NCBI GenBank assembly: GCA_016867715.1 | Contig: VGIW01000024.1 | Span: forward strand, 1 to 38,666 | Length of the DNA: 38,666 nt | Reading direction: 5' to 3' | Origin: Candidatus Eisenbacteria bacterium | GTDB lineage: Bacteria > Orphanbacterota > Orphanbacteria > Orphanbacterales > Orphanbacteraceae | Part shown: one piece after another, positions 23,105 through 35,788 of the stretch | Numbering within the stretch: the stretch's first letter is position 1 | Layout of the letters: each line of letters opens with the position of its first letter | Position numbers and translations under genes: made by a program | The notes under the pieces: model-generated | What the model saw: only the letters and a program-made list of their open reading frames with translations | Database searches by the model: none | What the model was told of the DNA's origin: nothing

Positions 23105-24394
<1,290 letters not shown>

Positions 24395-24516
24395 CTCGTT
24401 CCTCTCACTTTCAGCGGACGTTGGATCCCAATCCATGGGGTTGAAGAATGCCGCTGATGGCCGTCCGGGGCCCGGGGAGCTCCTGGGCGTCGACCGTCTT
24501 TCGAACTGCCGGAGCG

Positions 24517-24545
24517 AGTATATGCGGCGGACCGTCCCGCCGCAA
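24517..24545 (-). promoter_or_regulatory. Strong gdh promoter with an inverted repeat filling the spacer
   Basis: On the minus strand, TTGCGG (24540-24545), 17 bases, TATACT (24517-24522). The spacer is a perfect 8-base inverted repeat, TGCGGCGG (24523-24530) and CCGCCGCA (24537-24544), separated by 6 bases. It is a good candidate operator. The predicted start is near 24510, giving a ~115-nt leader. Confidence 0.6.
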
Positions 24546-24595
24546 GAGAAGCCGAACGATCCCGCCGCGATCCTTTCCGAGGGATGCGTCCTTCG

Positions 24596-24624
24596 TTGAC
24601 GATCCCGGTCGCGCGCACTACCGT
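24596..24624 (+). promoter_or_regulatory. Promoter for a leaderless RNase R-like mRNA
   Basis: TTGACG (24596-24601), 17 bases, TACCGT (24619-24624). Seven bases then separate it from ATG 24632, so transcription should begin at the start codon itself. No ribosome site precedes that ATG, consistent with leaderless translation. Confidence 0.5.
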
Positions 24625-24631
24625 TCCCCGA

Positions 24632-26269
24632 ATGAGGAAGGAGTGGAAGAGTCGAAAGAGAAACCGGGAGGCGGCCGTGCGCCCAGCGAAAGCGCGCGGG
24701 CCGAGGGAGGCGAGGCCCGGCGAACCGGGCCCGTCCGGCGCCGATCTTCTCGCGGTCGTTCGGACGTTCGGCTTCCCCGCGGCGTTCCCGGCTTCCGTCC
24801 TCCAAGAGGCGGACCGCGAGGCGGGGAAAGACACCTCGGCGGAGGAAGCGCGGCGGGTCGATCGAACGAAGGACCTCGTCTACACGATCGATCCGTCCGA
24901 CGCGAAGGACCACGACGACGCGATCTCCGTCGAGCGCCGGAAAGACGGCTATCGGCTCGGCGTCCACATCGCGGATGTTTCCCACTATGTGAGGGAAGGG
25001 AGCGCGCTCGACCGGGAGGCGCTCCGCCGCGGGAACTCGGTCTATCTTCCGGGTCTCGTGATCCCGATGCTCCCCGAGCCCCTCTCGAACGACGTCTGCT
25101 CGCTCCGCCCGAACCGCCGGCGCCTCGCGCATTCGGTCGTCATCGATTTCGATGCGAACGGATCACCCATCAAGTGGCACTTCGAGGAGACCGTGATCCG
25201 CTCCCGCGCCAAGCTCTCGTACGAAGAGGTCCAGCGCTTCTTCGACGTGGGAACGAAGGACGCGAAGACTCTTCGCGTTGCGGAGAACCTGCTCCTCGCG
25301 CGCGAGCTCGCGCGCCTTCTTTTCCGGCGCCGCTCCGAGGAGGGATCGCTCGACTTCGACCTTCCCGAGGCGAAGGTCGTCCTCGACGAGCGCGGAGAGG
25401 TCGTCGAGATCGGCAGGCGGGTCCGCCTCGAGTCCCATCGCCTGATCGAGGAGTTCATGCTCGCCGCGAACCGCGCGGTCGCCGTCGAGGTGATGCGGAA
25501 GGGTCAGCCGTTTCTCTATCGGGTGCACGGCCGGCCCGACCGGGAGAGCCTCGCGTTCTTTTCCTACATGATGGATCGTCTCGGGTACTCGTTCCCGGTC
25601 TCGGACGACATGCGCCCGATCCGCTTCGCGCGTTTTCTCGAGAAGGTGAAGCAAGCTCCGGACGCGGACCTCGTTCACGAGCTCATGCTCCGCTCGATGC
25701 AGAAGGCGGTCTATCAGCGGGAGAACATCGGCCACTTCGGCCTCGCCTTTCGACACTACACGCACTTCACCTCTCCGATCCGGCGCTACCCGGACCTCTT
25801 CGTTCATCGGATGCTGCGCGCGCTCCGCGGGCGGTCCGGCTACGTTCCCTCGTACGCGCGCCGCCTCGCGCCGCGAATCGACGCCGTGGGGAAGCACTGC
25901 AGCGAGGCGGAGCGGGCGGCGGAGGCGGCCGAGAGGCTCGCGGTGCGCATGCTGCAGGCGAGATACCTCGCGAGCCGCCTCGGCGAGGAGTACGAAGGCC
26001 GGATCACCGGCGTCGTTCGGTTCGGGTTCTTCGTTCGTCTGGACGGCCTCGGCGCGGAGGGGCTCGTCCGGACCTCGCTCCTCGGGGGGGACGACTTCCG
26101 ATTCGACGAGAGGAGCGCGCGACTCATCGGGCGGCGCACCCGGACCGTCTATCGAATGGGGGATCGGGTCCGGGTGGGGATCGCCCGGGCGGATCCGTCT
26201 CGCGGGGAGATCGATCTCTTTCTGCCGAACGAGTCGCGGTCGGCGCGTCCGAAGCGAGGAGGGCGGTGA
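24632..26269 (+). CDS. rnr: Compact RNase R/RNase II-family 3'-5' exoribonuclease
   Basis: 545 residues from ATG 24632 (an alternative ATG 24584 adds 16). The N-terminus is basic. The RNB catalytic domain starts at once with IDPSDAKDHDDA: D87, D93, D95 and D96 match the spacing of E. coli RNase II D201/207/209/210. Further RNB blocks are 'YRLGVHIADVSHYV', 'LPEPLSNDVCSLRPN' and 'HYTHFTSPIRRYPDLFVHR'. A C-terminal S1 domain follows ('YEGRITGVVRFGFFVRL'). E. coli RNase R is 813 residues; the two N-terminal cold-shock domains are missing here. It degrades RNA processively from the 3' end. Confidence 0.9.
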   Translation: MRKEWKSRKRNREAAVRPAKARGPREARPGEPGPSGADLLAVVRTFGFPAAFPASVLQEADREAGKDTSAEEARRVDRTKDLVYTIDPSDAKDHDDAISVERRKDGYRLGVHIADVSHYVREGSALDREALRRGNSVYLPGLVIPMLPEPLSNDVCSLRPNRRRLAHSVVIDFDANGSPIKWHFEETVIRSRAKLSYEEVQRFFDVGTKDAKTLRVAENLLLARELARLLFRRRSEEGSLDFDLPEAKVVLDERGEVVEIGRRVRLESHRLIEEFMLAANRAVAVEVMRKGQPFLYRVHGRPDRESLAFFSYMMDRLGYSFPVSDDMRPIRFARFLEKVKQAPDADLVHELMLRSMQKAVYQRENIGHFGLAFRHYTHFTSPIRRYPDLFVHRMLRALRGRSGYVPSYARRLAPRIDAVGKHCSEAERAAEAAERLAVRMLQARYLASRLGEEYEGRITGVVRFGFFVRLDGLGAEGLVRTSLLGGDDFRFDERSARLIGRRTRTVYRMGDRVRVGIARADPSRGEIDLFLPNESRSARPKRGGR

Positions 26270-31886: not shown

Positions 31887-32669
31887 ATGGAGGCGAAGCA
31901 CCTCGTCGTCGATCGGACCGGAAGGACGGCGGTCGTCCGCATCAACCGTCCGAAGGTTCTGAACGCACTGAACAAGGAGACGATGAACGAGCTCCGCGAG
32001 GTTTTCCTTGAAATGCGAAGGGATTCCTCGGTAGGAGGAGTGATCGTGACCGGCGAGGGGGACCGCGCCTTCGTGGCGGGGGCCGACATCAACGAGATCG
32101 CCGCGCTCGACGCCGAAGGCGCCCGCGCGTTCTCCCTCTCCGGGCAGCACGTGTTCGGGTTGATCGAGAAGATCGGCAAGCCGGTGATCGCGGCGGTGAA
32201 CGGCTTCGCCCTCGGCGGAGGATGCGAGCTCGCCCTCGCGTGCACGATGCGCGTCGCCTCGGAGAAGGCGGTCTTCGGGCTCCCGGAGGTCACGCTCGGC
32301 GTGATCCCCGGTTACGGCGGGACGCAGCGCCTCGCGCGGCTCGTCGGGAAAGGGATCGCCTCGGAGATCGTCACGACCGGGCGCAAGGTCCTCGCCGACG
32401 AGGCGCTTCGGATCGGGCTCGTCAACCGCGTCGTTCCGCCGGAGAAGCTCATCGAAGCGTGCGAAGAAATCCTCGAGCCGATCTACAAGGTCGGACCGAT
32501 CGCGGTGCGCTTCGCCCTCGAGGCAATCCATCACGGTCTCGACATGACGCTGGAGGAGGGGAGCGCCTACGAGGCGGCTCTCTTCGGGCTTGTTTGCGGA
32601 ACCGAGGACGCGGAGGAAGGGTGCCGCGCGTTTCTCGAGAAACGAAAAGCGGAGTTCCGCGGGAAGTAA
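31887..32669 (+). CDS. Enoyl-CoA hydratase/isomerase (crotonase family)
   Basis: 260 residues. The oxyanion-hole signatures are 'DRAFVAGADINEI' and 'NGFALGGGCELALAC'. Both catalytic Glu of true hydratases are present (CELA and LPEVTLGVIPGYGGTQRL). It hydrates trans-2-enoyl-CoA to 3-hydroxyacyl-CoA. ATG 31887 has GGGGAGG at -11 to -5, which rejects the longer upstream frame. It is followed after 70 bases by an acyl-CoA dehydrogenase, giving the first two steps of beta-oxidation in one unit. It diverges from the methylmalonyl-CoA genes. Confidence 0.93.
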   Translation: MEAKHLVVDRTGRTAVVRINRPKVLNALNKETMNELREVFLEMRRDSSVGGVIVTGEGDRAFVAGADINEIAALDAEGARAFSLSGQHVFGLIEKIGKPVIAAVNGFALGGGCELALACTMRVASEKAVFGLPEVTLGVIPGYGGTQRLARLVGKGIASEIVTTGRKVLADEALRIGLVNRVVPPEKLIEACEEILEPIYKVGPIAVRFALEAIHHGLDMTLEEGSAYEAALFGLVCGTEDAEEGCRAFLEKRKAEFRGK

Positions 32670-32739
32670 ACGGCCCCGGATCCGCTCCTTGCCCGGGCGC
32701 GAAGGGTTCGTACGCCCCGCCCGGCCGCCGGAGAAGAAC

Positions 32740-33885
32740 ATGGACTTCAGTTGGACCGAAGAGCAAGAGATGATCCGGAACATGGCGCGCCAGTTCGCGG
32801 GCGAGATCCGCGACGAGGCGGCGGAGGCTGAGGAGAAGGGGGAGTTCTCGCGCCCGATCACCAAGAGGCTCGCCGAGAACGGCTTCCTCGGCATGTGCGT
32901 CCCCGAGGAATACGGCGGGCAGGGGCTCGATTTCACGAGCTATCTCATCGCCACCGAGGAGATCTCCCGCGCGAGCGCCGGGCAAGGGATGACGCTCGGG
33001 CTGCATAATTCGCTCCTCAACTATCCGCTTCTCGTCTTCGGCACCGAGGAGCAGAAGCGAAAGTACCTCCGCGGCTCCGCGACGGGAGAGCTTCTCGGAT
33101 GCTACGCCCTCAGCGAGCCGGACGCCGGATCGGACGCGACCCACATCAAGACGACCGCGGTGAAGAAGAAAGACCGCTACGTGATCAACGGAACGAAGAT
33201 CTTCATCACGAACGGCTCGGTCGCCGACTTCGTGATCCTCTTTTCGAAGGTCGATCGGGGGGGCGGCGTGATCCGGGGGATGTCCGCGTTTCTCGTCGAC
33301 ACGACCGCGCCGGGCTTCTCCGTCGGCACGGTGGAGAACAAGATGGGGCTGAAGAGCTCGCCCACGTGCGAGCTGATCTTCCGCGACGTCGAGGTTCCGG
33401 AGAGCGCGCTTCTCGGCGCGCCGGGGAAGGGGCTTCGGATCGCGGTCGAGACGCTCCACGGGGGCCGGGTCGCGGTCGCCGCTTCCGCGGTCGGCATGGC
33501 GGAGGAAGCCTTCGAGGCGGCGCGCGCCTACGCGCACGCGCGGGAGCAGTTCGGGCAGCGGATCGCCGACTTTCAGGGGATCCAGTGGCTCTTCGCCGAC
33601 ATGAGGACGGAGATCGACGCCGCGCGCCTGCTCACGTACGAGGCGGGTTGGCGGAAGGAGAAGGACCTTCCGTACGCACGGCAGGCCAGTCAGGCGAAGC
33701 TCTTCGCGACCGAGACGGCGACCCGCACCGCGAGCCGCGCGATCCAGATCCACGGCGGCTACGGTTACATGCGCGAGTACCGCATCGAGCAGATCTACCG
33801 GGACGCGAAGGCGGCGGAGATCTTCGAGGGGACCTCGGAGATCCAGAGAAGCACGATCGGGCGCGACGTGGTCCGAGGAGAATAA
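32740..33885 (+). CDS. Acyl-CoA dehydrogenase
   Basis: 381 residues, the standard short/medium-chain length. Signatures are 'GCYALSEPDAGSDATHIKTTAV' and 'YVINGTKIFITNG' (FAD and substrate region). The C-terminal 'QIHGGYGYMREYRIEQIYRDAK' and IFEGTSEIQ carry the catalytic Glu. It oxidises acyl-CoA to enoyl-CoA, passing electrons to ETF. ATG 32740 is preceded by GGAGAAGAAC. It ends 25 bases before a strong terminator. Confidence 0.94.
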   Translation: MDFSWTEEQEMIRNMARQFAGEIRDEAAEAEEKGEFSRPITKRLAENGFLGMCVPEEYGGQGLDFTSYLIATEEISRASAGQGMTLGLHNSLLNYPLLVFGTEEQKRKYLRGSATGELLGCYALSEPDAGSDATHIKTTAVKKKDRYVINGTKIFITNGSVADFVILFSKVDRGGGVIRGMSAFLVDTTAPGFSVGTVENKMGLKSSPTCELIFRDVEVPESALLGAPGKGLRIAVETLHGGRVAVAASAVGMAEEAFEAARAYAHAREQFGQRIADFQGIQWLFADMRTEIDAARLLTYEAGWRKEKDLPYARQASQAKLFATETATRTASRAIQIHGGYGYMREYRIEQIYRDAKAAEIFEGTSEIQRSTIGRDVVRGE

Positions 33886-33909
33886 TCCTCGGTTCTTGAA
33901 CCATTAAGA

Positions 33910-33945
33910 GACCGGACGGACGCGTCCGGTCTTCGTTTTCTTTCC
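33910..33945 (+). terminator. Rho-independent terminator after acyl-CoA dehydrogenase
   Basis: GACCGGACG (33910-33918), loop GACG, CGTCCGGTC (33923-33931), then TTCGTTTTCTTT. It closes the beta-oxidation operon. The stretch from here to the promoter at 34101 contains no gene I can support. Confidence 0.88.
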
Positions 33946-34100
33946 CCACTTCCCCCCACCCCCGGCGCCCGGGAGCCAATTGGCGCGCGGACATGAAGTT
34001 GCGCCGCCCCCTTCGACCGGATTCGAGGGAATCGGATCCGCGCGGTCCTCCGGGGGGGTGGGGAACGGGAAGATGGACCGGTCCGAACCGGAAAAAAATG

Positions 34101-34130
34101 TTGACACGCTCCCAAGCGGGGGGATAAAGT
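34101..34130 (+). promoter_or_regulatory. Promoter of the mraZ/dcw cluster
   Basis: TTGACA (34101-34106), 18 bases, TAAAGT (34125-34130); a 17-base spacing to ATAAAG is also possible. The predicted start is near 34137, inside the MraZ box. The leader to mraZ is about 208 nt. Confidence 0.65.
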
Positions 34131-34153
34131 GGGGATCCGTGGGTGGAAGTGGG
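34129..34153 (+). promoter_or_regulatory. MraZ-binding repeats (operator)
   Basis: GTGGG occurs at 34129-34133, 34139-34143 and 34149-34153, each separated by exactly 5 bases. This 10-base period of TGGG-type repeats is the known MraZ recognition site, on one face of the helix. It overlaps the -10 end and the transcription start, so bound MraZ should repress its own operon. Confidence 0.85.
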
Positions 34154-34219
34154 GCGCGGTCCCCTATGTTGTTTCGGAGCCCCCGAGCAGGAGCGCAGAG
34201 GCCATGGGTTCCTCGCATC

Positions 34220-34281
34220 GCTGTCGAGCGGAATCCGGGGGGCCGGATCTCGACAGCCGTGCGGGCGAAGGATAGCACGGC
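34220..34281 (+). promoter_or_regulatory. Two adjoining stem-loops in the mraZ 5' leader
   Basis: GCTGTCGAG (34220-34228) pairs with CTCGACAGC (34249-34257), continued inside by ATCCGG (34233-34238) and CCGGAT (34243-34248). This makes a 15-bp stem with a 4-base bulge and a GGGG loop. A second stem, GCCGTGC (34256-34262) and GCACGGC (34275-34281), shares two bases with the first, so the two may compete. No T-run follows. No known riboswitch class was recognised. Confidence 0.5.
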
Positions 34282-34344
34282 GCCCGAAACGAGCGAAGGG
34301 AAAACGCGAGTGCACCCGCCTTCCGCCGCACCCGGAGGGAAACG

Positions 34345-34818
34345 GTGGAACGGCTCTTCGGCTCCCATCGCGTCGTCGTCGACTCGAAGGGGCGCCTCAT
34401 CATCCCGGCGGCTTTTCGCAAGATCCTCTTCCCCGAGCCCGGCCGCTCGGGAACCCTGACCCTCGGCTACGAGCACTGCGTCGCCCTCTATCCTCCCGAC
34501 CGCTGGGAGGAAGAAGAGAACCTGATCCACCGCCTTCCGTTCACCTCGACCAACGTCCGGCGGATCGCCCGCATGATGGGATATCACGCGAAGCCGTGCG
34601 CTCTCGACGCGCAAGGACGGATCGTCCTCTCGAAGGACATCCGCGAGTACGCGAAGATCGATCGCGAAGCGCTCGTGCTCGGCGTGTTCCAACATATCGA
34701 AATATTCAACCCAGAAATCTATGAGGCGTATCAATCCGGATCGGACATGACGTTCGAGCGGGCCGCCGAGGAGCTGACTCGGTTGCACGAGAAGTCGCGT
34801 TCCGATGAGATCCGATGA
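34345..34818 (+). CDS. mraZ: MraZ, transcriptional regulator of the division/cell-wall cluster
   Basis: 157 residues from GTG 34345, with CGGAGGGAAAC upstream. Two AbrB-like half-domains each carry the DxxGR signature: 'VVVDSKGRLIIPAAFRKIL' and 'CALDAQGRIVLSKDIREYAKI'. MraZ forms ring oligomers that bind GTGGG-type repeats. A matching triple repeat lies at 34129-34153. The gene overlaps rsmH by 14 bases. Confidence 0.95.
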   Translation: MERLFGSHRVVVDSKGRLIIPAAFRKILFPEPGRSGTLTLGYEHCVALYPPDRWEEEENLIHRLPFTSTNVRRIARMMGYHAKPCALDAQGRIVLSKDIREYAKIDREALVLGVFQHIEIFNPEIYEAYQSGSDMTFERAAEELTRLHEKSRSDEIR

Positions 34819-35788
34819 CCCGGCCCTCGGCGGAGGGGGCCACGAACCGGTCTTGGCGCGCGAGGTCGCCGAGGCGTTGCGGCCGTTCCCGGGCGGCATC
34901 TTCGTCGACGCGACCTTCGGGCTGGGCAACCACACGGCCGCGGTCCTCGATGCCGTGGAGGGAATCGAGCGTGTCGTGGGGATCGATCGCGACGGAGAGA
35001 TTCTCGAGGAAGCCGGGCGCCGCTTCGCGCGATCCGCGGTTCCCGTGGATCTGGTGCGAGGGAATTTTCGGGATCTTCGCGCGCTCCTCGGCCCCGGAGC
35101 GGAAGGGCGCGTGGGAGGAATCCTTTTCGACCTCGGGATCGGCTCCTTCCAAATCGACCGTCCCGAGCGCGGGTTCTCCTACCGGTCCGAGGGGGCGCTC
35201 GACATGAGGATGGATCGGAGCGGGACTAGGAGCGCCTACGACGTGGTGAACGGCTATTCGGCCGAGGAGCTCGCGCGCGTGATCCGTCGGTGGGGAGAGG
35301 AGCGGAACGCCGGAGCGATCGCGCGTGCGATCGTCCGCGCGCGCCGGGCAGCTCCGATCGCCGGCACGCGCCGCCTGGCCGAGGTCGTCTCCTCGCGTCT
35401 TTCGGCGCGAGGGAGGATCAAGGGGCTCGCGCGCGTGTTCCAAGCGATCCGCATCGAGGTGAACGAGGAGATCGCCTCGCTCGAGGAAGGATTGTCGCAA
35501 GCGGTGGACGTGCTCGCGCCGGGCGGGCATATCGCCGTCATCGGATATCACTCGATCGAAGATCGAGTCGTCAAGCAACGGTTTCAGGAGTGGGCCCGGG
35601 GCTGCGTCTGTCCACCGCACCTGCCAGTCTGCCGGTGCGGACGCGCCCCGGCGCTCCGTCTCTCTTCCCGCCGGGCGATCCGGCCGTCCGAGGAAGAGGT
35701 GGCGAGGAACCCGCGGGCGAGGAGCGCCCGACTCCGCGCGGCGGTTCGGATCGCCCCCGAGGGAAGAGAAGGAAGGGGGAACGGATGA
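34805..35788 (+). CDS. rsmH: 16S rRNA (cytosine(1402)-N4)-methyltransferase RsmH
   Basis: 327 residues. The N-terminal HEPVLAREV and 'GIFVDATFGLGNHTAAVL' form the SAM site. 'GGILFDLGIGSFQID', 'RGFSYRSEGALDMRMD', 'RVFQAIRIEVNEE' and 'YHSIEDRVVKQRF' are family hallmarks. Homologs more often have DLGvSS where this has DLGIGS, a small deviation. It methylates N4 of C1402 in the ribosomal P site. It overlaps mraZ at its start and ftsL at its end (ATGA at 35785), indicating tight coupling. Confidence 0.96.
   Translation: MRSDDPALGGGGHEPVLAREVAEALRPFPGGIFVDATFGLGNHTAAVLDAVEGIERVVGIDRDGEILEEAGRRFARSAVPVDLVRGNFRDLRALLGPGAEGRVGGILFDLGIGSFQIDRPERGFSYRSEGALDMRMDRSGTRSAYDVVNGYSAEELARVIRRWGEERNAGAIARAIVRARRAAPIAGTRRLAEVVSSRLSARGRIKGLARVFQAIRIEVNEEIASLEEGLSQAVDVLAPGGHIAVIGYHSIEDRVVKQRFQEWARGCVCPPHLPVCRCGRAPALRLSSRRAIRPSEEEVARNPRARSARLRAAVRIAPEGREGRGNG

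Follow-up and report, generated by a model that had tools for sequence, protein, structure and literature searches.

In many bacteria, the gene mraZ stands at the start of the gene cluster for division and cell-wall synthesis. In the window analyzed here, the whole 38,666-nt stretch of DNA that forms one contig of a draft genome (3.5 Mb, 172 contigs), mraZ lies toward the right end (34345–34818, plus strand, GTG start at 34345; PF02381, E 4.1e-27). It is followed by a MraW methylase gene (34805–35788; PF01795) and preceded on the same strand by an acyl-CoA dehydrogenase gene (32590–33885). Two overlapping hairpins are located upstream of mraZ, and the locus raises the question of what they do. 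Do they act within the mraZ mRNA, as proposed by the first-pass annotation, or do they belong to another control element? Comparative analysis was based on a phylum sample of seven genomes, all containing mraZ (7/7): the genome of the window (G000), five more distant family relatives (G002–G006), and G001, the single genome of the same genus that was compared, so that conservation within the genus rests on two species.

A consensus scan identified one plus-strand promoter-like site for mraZ: TTGACA (34101–34106), an 18-nt spacer and TAAAGT (34125–34130), matching the consensus at 10/12 positions. A single site of this class was found, compared to a mean of 0.1 in shuffled sequences, and both hexamers are identical in G001; the promoter is a prediction. 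Directly 5′ of the −35 box is an A-tract (AAAAAAA, 34092–34098) that may play an UP-element-like role, and a run of 6–7 A occupies this position in all seven family genomes. Three GTGGG boxes (34129–34153; TGGG at 34130, 34140 and 34150) are spaced at exactly 10 bp and span the predicted start site, and at least two TGGG motifs with 10-bp spacing are present near the mraZ promoter in 7/7 family genomes. The combination of mraZ with 10-bp-spaced boxes at the predicted start site suggests that these form an MraZ operator and that the promoter is probably MraZ-autoregulated. Transcription starting near 34137 would generate a 208-nt leader (34137–34344) with a Shine-Dalgarno region at 34333–34339; the leader length of about 208 nt given by the first-pass annotation fits the predicted promoter and the GTG codon at 34345.

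Both stems described in that annotation are present base for base, including the GGGG loop, the bulge and the two-base overlap. Stem 1 (34220–34257, plus strand) consists of 9 + 6 bp with a 4-nt bulge; its outer arms are GCTGTCGAG (34220–34228) and CTCGACAGC (34249–34257), and its inner part comprises the bulge CGGA (34229–34232), ATCCGG (34233–34238), the loop GGGG (34239–34242) and CCGGAT (34243–34248). It is identical in G001. Stem 2 (34256–34281, plus strand) is formed by 7 bp, GCCGTGC (34256–34262) with GCACGGC (34275–34281), enclosing a 12-nt loop, and shares bases 34256–34257 with stem 1. In the ensemble predicted for 34137–34360, stem 1 is nearly certain (pair probabilities 0.53–1.0, the outer two pairs having 0.53 and 0.61), and stem 2 reaches 0.39–0.57. 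In the isolated fragment 34210–34300, the probability of stem 2 is 0.0, as it is displaced by pairing of 34262–34267 with 34281–34286. Its competitor in the longer sequences is an extension of stem 1 (34214–34218 with 34259–34263, spanning 34214–34263 on the plus strand; inverted repeat I12), with probabilities of 0.39–0.43 in 34137–34360 and 0.48–0.53 in 34137–34290. Stem 2 thus does compete with other folds, as had been suggested, being one of two or three alternatives, but these do not arise from the two shared bases.

None of the predicted alternative folds touches a terminator or the Shine-Dalgarno site of mraZ. The Shine-Dalgarno bases 34334–34339 pair with 34354–34359 at the start of the coding region (probability 0.93–0.94), and 34333 pairs with 34360 (0.83). 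On the plus strand, a scan found nothing resembling a terminator downstream of the stems, or anywhere in the leader beyond 34167; weak terminator-like sites of 5–6 pairs occur at 34149–34167, near the leader 5′ end. Mutually exclusive folds that control a terminator or the ribosome site are not predicted, and the leader does not appear to be a switching leader of the riboswitch or attenuator type.

The 91 nt around the stems, a stretch picked for containing them, fold with −47.4 kcal/mol (z −3.61; 0/200 shuffles as good). For longer folds, z was −1.89 for 34137–34360 (6/200 shuffles) and −2.13 for 34137–34344 (2/100). Against the genomic background, the 62-nt stem stretch (−33.1) is not extreme: the window has 42 other distinct places of equal stability, and energies as low were found for 81 of 4924 GC-matched stretches, the overlapping stretches of the target itself being counted. 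Since the window is GC-rich and offers 42 equally stable places, stability alone is weak evidence. The fold of 34137–34360 also suggested a long-range helix that would join the G-rich boxes at the 5′ end to a CCTTCC segment upstream of the Shine-Dalgarno site, but this was rejected: shuffles of the 3′ arm equalled it in 95/500 cases for G000 and 82/500 for G001. It stands out just in G003 (2/500) and G006 (13/500), which belong to one genus; G004 is not comparable in this test, in which a wrong upstream TGGG was used for that genome.

No known leader RNA had been recognized from the letters alone, and this held when Rfam was searched: no family fits in the window, in 34000–34450 or in the seven family loci. 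There were zero matches in the window at the gathering score and none in the seven loci at E up to 5; four weak matches obtained for 34000–34450 at E up to 10 were all implausible. The stem region is not a dispersed repeat, since the 91-nt stretch is single-copy in its own genome, where the 26 other matches are pieces of 14–21 bases. Across the phylum, a 101-nt query found a full-length match in G001 alone; the best of the remaining matches were a 31-base one in G003 (E 7e-4) and another in G001, 46 bases long with 81% identity (E 1e-3). Two further searches were uninformative: 92 stretches in viral contigs match a 15-base pattern, and the phage search gave zero matches. Elsewhere in the window, the segment 7181–7385 resembles a dispersed repeat, with 19 matches on 16 contigs of G001.

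Comparison with G001 revealed that the leader is strongly conserved. The longest identical run in 28,213 aligned bases (~28.2 kb) is 135 bases long and extends from 34169 to 34303; the lead is narrow, as the next longest are 134 bases in a glutamate-dehydrogenase-family gene (23105–25132) and 129 bases in the MraW gene (in these lengths, a run is not interrupted by bases inserted in G001). Over 34170–34344, 174 of 175 bases are identical, and windows of 175 bases with at most one mismatch number 33 of 27,169, all located at the leader or the MraW gene. Lower agreement was observed at mraZ third codon positions (139/158) and in the region upstream of the mraZ promoter (33945–34094; 103/164 alignment columns). 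If sites are treated as independent, the probability that 175 bases differ at no more than one position is 4.6e-9 at the mraZ third-codon rate, 1.0e-7 at the window-wide rate and 2.8e-4 at the whole-mraZ rate. Judged from these sequence differences, the mraZ leader is under constraint within the genus of the window. The stems, an upstream ORF and a reverse promoter-like site (both described below) all lie within the identical block, and the conservation is therefore not assignable to any one of them; with just two species, it is not divisible among RNA, DNA and peptide. The 129 identical bases of the MraW gene (34899–35027) include third codon positions, and constitute an unusually unchanged coding stretch.

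The first-pass annotation placed the function of the hairpins in the mraZ mRNA itself, as a possible post-initiation control. There they might provide protection, slow RNA polymerase or serve as a binding site for a small RNA or a protein, and the long mraZ leader of Rhodobacter may be such a case. We regard this cis-acting role as rather unlikely, although several observations are consistent with it: the local fold (z −3.61), the identity of the stems in the sister species, the competition between stem 2 and the stem 1 extension, and the precedent of a structured long mraZ leader in Rhodobacteraceae, as described in PMC5089854. Of the proposed post-initiation control, the constrained leader (135 identical bases) and the competing folds stand, but no involvement of a terminator or Shine-Dalgarno site is predicted: the plus strand has no terminator-like site after the stems, and the ribosome site lies outside the stems in the predicted ensemble.

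Since G000 and G001 are identical over the stems, there is nothing for covariation to read inside the genus, and the six-leader alignment omits G001; this alignment is loose, with a mean column identity of 55%. Outside the genus, it shows no convincing compensatory changes for stem 1, the outcome that the first-pass annotation had named as refuting its reading: the 5′ arm of stem 1 corresponds to a gap in G002, G003, G005 and G006, and in G004 the aligned letters have a pairing probability of 0.0 and a different hairpin forms, so that in 5/5 relatives stem 1 is either missing from the alignment or does not pair. A count for stem 1, considered with regard to G004, of 24/29 paired cells and three two-sided changes exceeds every slid version; it was discarded, as shuffles reached these values in 35/500 and 72/500 cases and the pair probabilities in G004 are 0.0. 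On the same loose alignment, the columns of each stem contain three two-sided changes, a number reached by 72/500 shuffles for stem 1 and by 19/500 shuffles and no slid version for stem 2. The stem 2 count favors a cis-acting RNA, but in these columns only 59% of the cells are paired, and in 5/6 leaders the outermost base pair does not form. Although 9/17 pairs of the consensus fold of the six leaders show a two-sided change, its energy is only −2.94 kcal/mol, to which covariation contributes unfavourably. One consensus helix of six pairs (columns 56–61 with 193–198 of the loose alignment) retains its four inner pairs in 5–6 of the six leaders, and its 3′ side adjoins the reverse −35 box. On the plus strand, the leaders of the five relatives are hardly more structured than expected (z −1.91 to 1.35). 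Taken together, the pair counts and the consensus fold point to some two-sided changes, with nothing convincing on so loose an alignment. By eye, the leaders of loci L044 and L042 (genus g3) contain a tiny hairpin, AGU-GCA-ACU versus CGU-GCA-ACG, with one compensatory change that may be due to chance.

A different picture emerges from the opposite strand. The leader contains a minus-strand promoter-like site, TTCGCT (34297–34292), a 17-nt spacer and TATCCT (34274–34269), from which transcription would start near 34262. A minus-strand site with a spacer of exactly 17 bases, located 37–48 bases upstream of mraZ, is present in 7/7 family genomes. Its hexamers are TTGTCA/TATACT in G002, G003, G005 and G006, TTGCGC/TATACT in G004, and TTCGCT/TATCCT in G000 and G001, where the site is weak (7/12 consensus). 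When scored with an untrained promoter matrix, it is the top minus-strand site within 3.4 kb in six of the seven genomes, whereas G000 has two better ones; over about 6 kb, it is the top site in five genomes, the second in G001 and the fifth in G000. Outside the family, the best site at this position is among the top three in 1/23 mraZ loci (those fetched among 40 outside genomes with an mraZ match, with approximate start codons), a comparison made with the same matrix on loci placed differently around mraZ. Moreover, TTGTCA-17-TATACT is the sole site with at least 10/12 consensus positions and a 17-nt spacer on both strands of 6–6.5 kb in each of G002, G003, G005 and G006. The TATACT of the relatives aligns opposite another hexamer, a few bases from the reverse −10 box of G000 and G001, and therefore the old site may have decayed in this genus and the new match may be partly luck.

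In the five relatives (loci L041–L045), a divergent gene encoding a sulfatase (PF00884) with TPR is adjacent to mraZ. The long leader in these genomes follows from the presence of two predicted promoters facing each other beside the divergent gene; in G002 the divergent ORF, taken mechanically, extends over the reverse site. In G000 and G001 the sulfatase-TPR gene is not adjacent to mraZ, and relatives of the sulfatase are found elsewhere in G000. The idea that the gene had been translocated in G000 with its own promoter was rejected, as no TTGTCA-17-TATACT occurs within 1500 bases upstream of the best 4 of 63 matches. The 63 stretches of G000 matching one sulfatase-TPR protein suggest a large sulfatase/TPR repertoire. 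No terminator-like site was found by scanning the minus strand over 33400–34262.

Stem 1 would constitute the first bases of the reverse transcript (34220–34262, minus strand), whose first 60 nt fold with −29.6 kcal/mol. These 60 nt gave z −4.38 in G000 and −4.27 in G001 (0/200 shuffles in each case), and the corresponding values for the other five genomes (−1.81 to 1.50) are nothing unusual. The hairpin cap, present in G000 and G001 alone, is therefore not a family trait. Across the seven genomes compared, the hairpins are a trait of the genus and the backward-facing promoter-like site is a trait of the family. A palindromic stem folds on either strand, and so stem 1 fails to single out the reverse RNA.

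The reading that we tentatively prefer, while holding it at well below even confidence, is that the mraZ leader of the family may be a two-way control region with a hairpin capping a predicted reverse transcript; the 135-nt identical run contains both the reverse site and the stems. The mraZ promoter would fire rightward across the MraZ-type boxes, and the embedded second sigma-70-type site, 37–48 bases before mraZ, would fire leftward, giving opposed transcripts that, from their putative start sites, would overlap by ~91–130 bases across the seven genomes. In the genus of the window, where the divergent gene would no longer be adjacent, the reverse site may still produce an antisense RNA with stem 1 at its very 5′ end, serving for protection or helping pairing with the mraZ leader, and reverse transcription may interfere with mraZ initiation. 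The bidirectional promoter region would then be the older element, to which the hairpins were added at the level of the genus, and the hairpins would not be a translation or termination switch. A more far-reaching proposal, which we consider unlikely, is that in the family the dcw cluster would be wired to a divergent gene for an envelope sulfatase-TPR protein through 5′ leaders that overlap in antisense, the MraZ operator marking one end of the shared segment. In the genus of the window, where the partner would no longer be adjacent, the reverse transcript would survive as an antisense RNA that carries a hairpin cap and is dedicated to mraZ.

It is also possible, though improbable in our view, that the hairpins are a by-product of GC-rich DNA and that only DNA sites are conserved (the mraZ promoter, the operator and perhaps other protein sites), without a role for an RNA or a reverse transcript. 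The 42 other places in the window that fold equally well agree with this explanation, as do the TGGG boxes and promoter-like sites found in all relatives, but the identical block 34169–34303 reaches well beyond the operator and the local fold has a z of −3.61.

Finally, a 23-codon ORF (34204–34275, plus strand; ATG at 34204, TAG at 34273–34275) spans stem 1 as well as the 5′ arm of stem 2, and its product MGSSHRCRAESGGPDLDSRAGEG might be a leader peptide, translated over the stems, with ribosome passage through stem 1 coupling mraZ expression to translation. The ORF is intact in G000 and G001, and AGGAG (34189–34193) lies ten bases upstream of its ATG. This idea draws on the good Shine-Dalgarno match because such ORFs (closed, starting with ATG, at least 10 codons, Shine-Dalgarno match 5/6) are rare in the background: 23/1040 plus-strand 208-nt stretches, a count that includes real gene starts, versus 0/1040 on the minus strand. 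It is a rival to be taken seriously but nevertheless quite improbable, given that an ATG ORF with a Shine-Dalgarno match of at least 5/6 occurs in 0/5 other leaders (G004 has a GTG ORF, 5/6), that no linked terminator or sequestered site was found, and that the two species are identical over the ORF, leaving no synonymous changes to read.

If the two-way control region is real, the predicted leader of 160–210 nt and the reverse promoter inside it would reveal, in a family of which few genomes have been sampled, a second means by which control can be placed upstream of the cluster, and division would be tied to a divergent gene resembling an envelope enzyme. A literature search on mraZ leaders, dcw UTRs, antisense RNA and Gemmatimonadetes gave no title on such an arrangement among the matches listed, which is not proof of absence.

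Among known systems, the mraW RNA motif (RF01746), located near mraW, resembles the mraZ leader described here in being a candidate cis-acting RNA of the dcw cluster. It has no match in the window at the gathering score and is absent from the four matches (E up to 10) in 34000–34450. PMC2864571 lists it for Actinomycetales. A closer parallel, and the nearest of all, is offered by the mraZ leader of Rhodobacteraceae with UpsM. According to PMC5089854, the leader of R. sphaeroides, which includes UpsM, is 268 nt long, and leaders of this type end in a strong Rho-independent terminator that gives rise to an sRNA; outside Rhodobacteraceae, mraZ leaders are typically 70 nt or shorter. Leaders of the UpsM type are also characterized by a length above 200 nt with one distant promoter, by the stability of the sRNA and by RNase E cleavage; here, a length of this order is a prediction from the one plus-strand promoter-like site that passed the scan (34101–34130) and the position of mraZ (34345). 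That terminator distinguishes the Rhodobacteraceae leader from the present one, where none follows the stems, in a comparison that covers features and not sequences. In G002–G006, the promoter positions imply an antisense 5′ overlap like that of excludons, or overlapping 5′ UTRs of divergent genes, as outlined in PMC4179725; unlike an excludon, the genus of the window lacks an adjacent divergent gene, and the predicted overlap would be short and confined to the leaders. The start site resembles that of the MraZ-autoregulated dcw promoter, which PMC7761207 describes for Burkholderia, citing E. coli, as carrying repeats at the start site. Here, too, repeats with a 10-bp period directly follow the −10 box and cover the predicted start site, but the leader is longer and contains an embedded reverse site.
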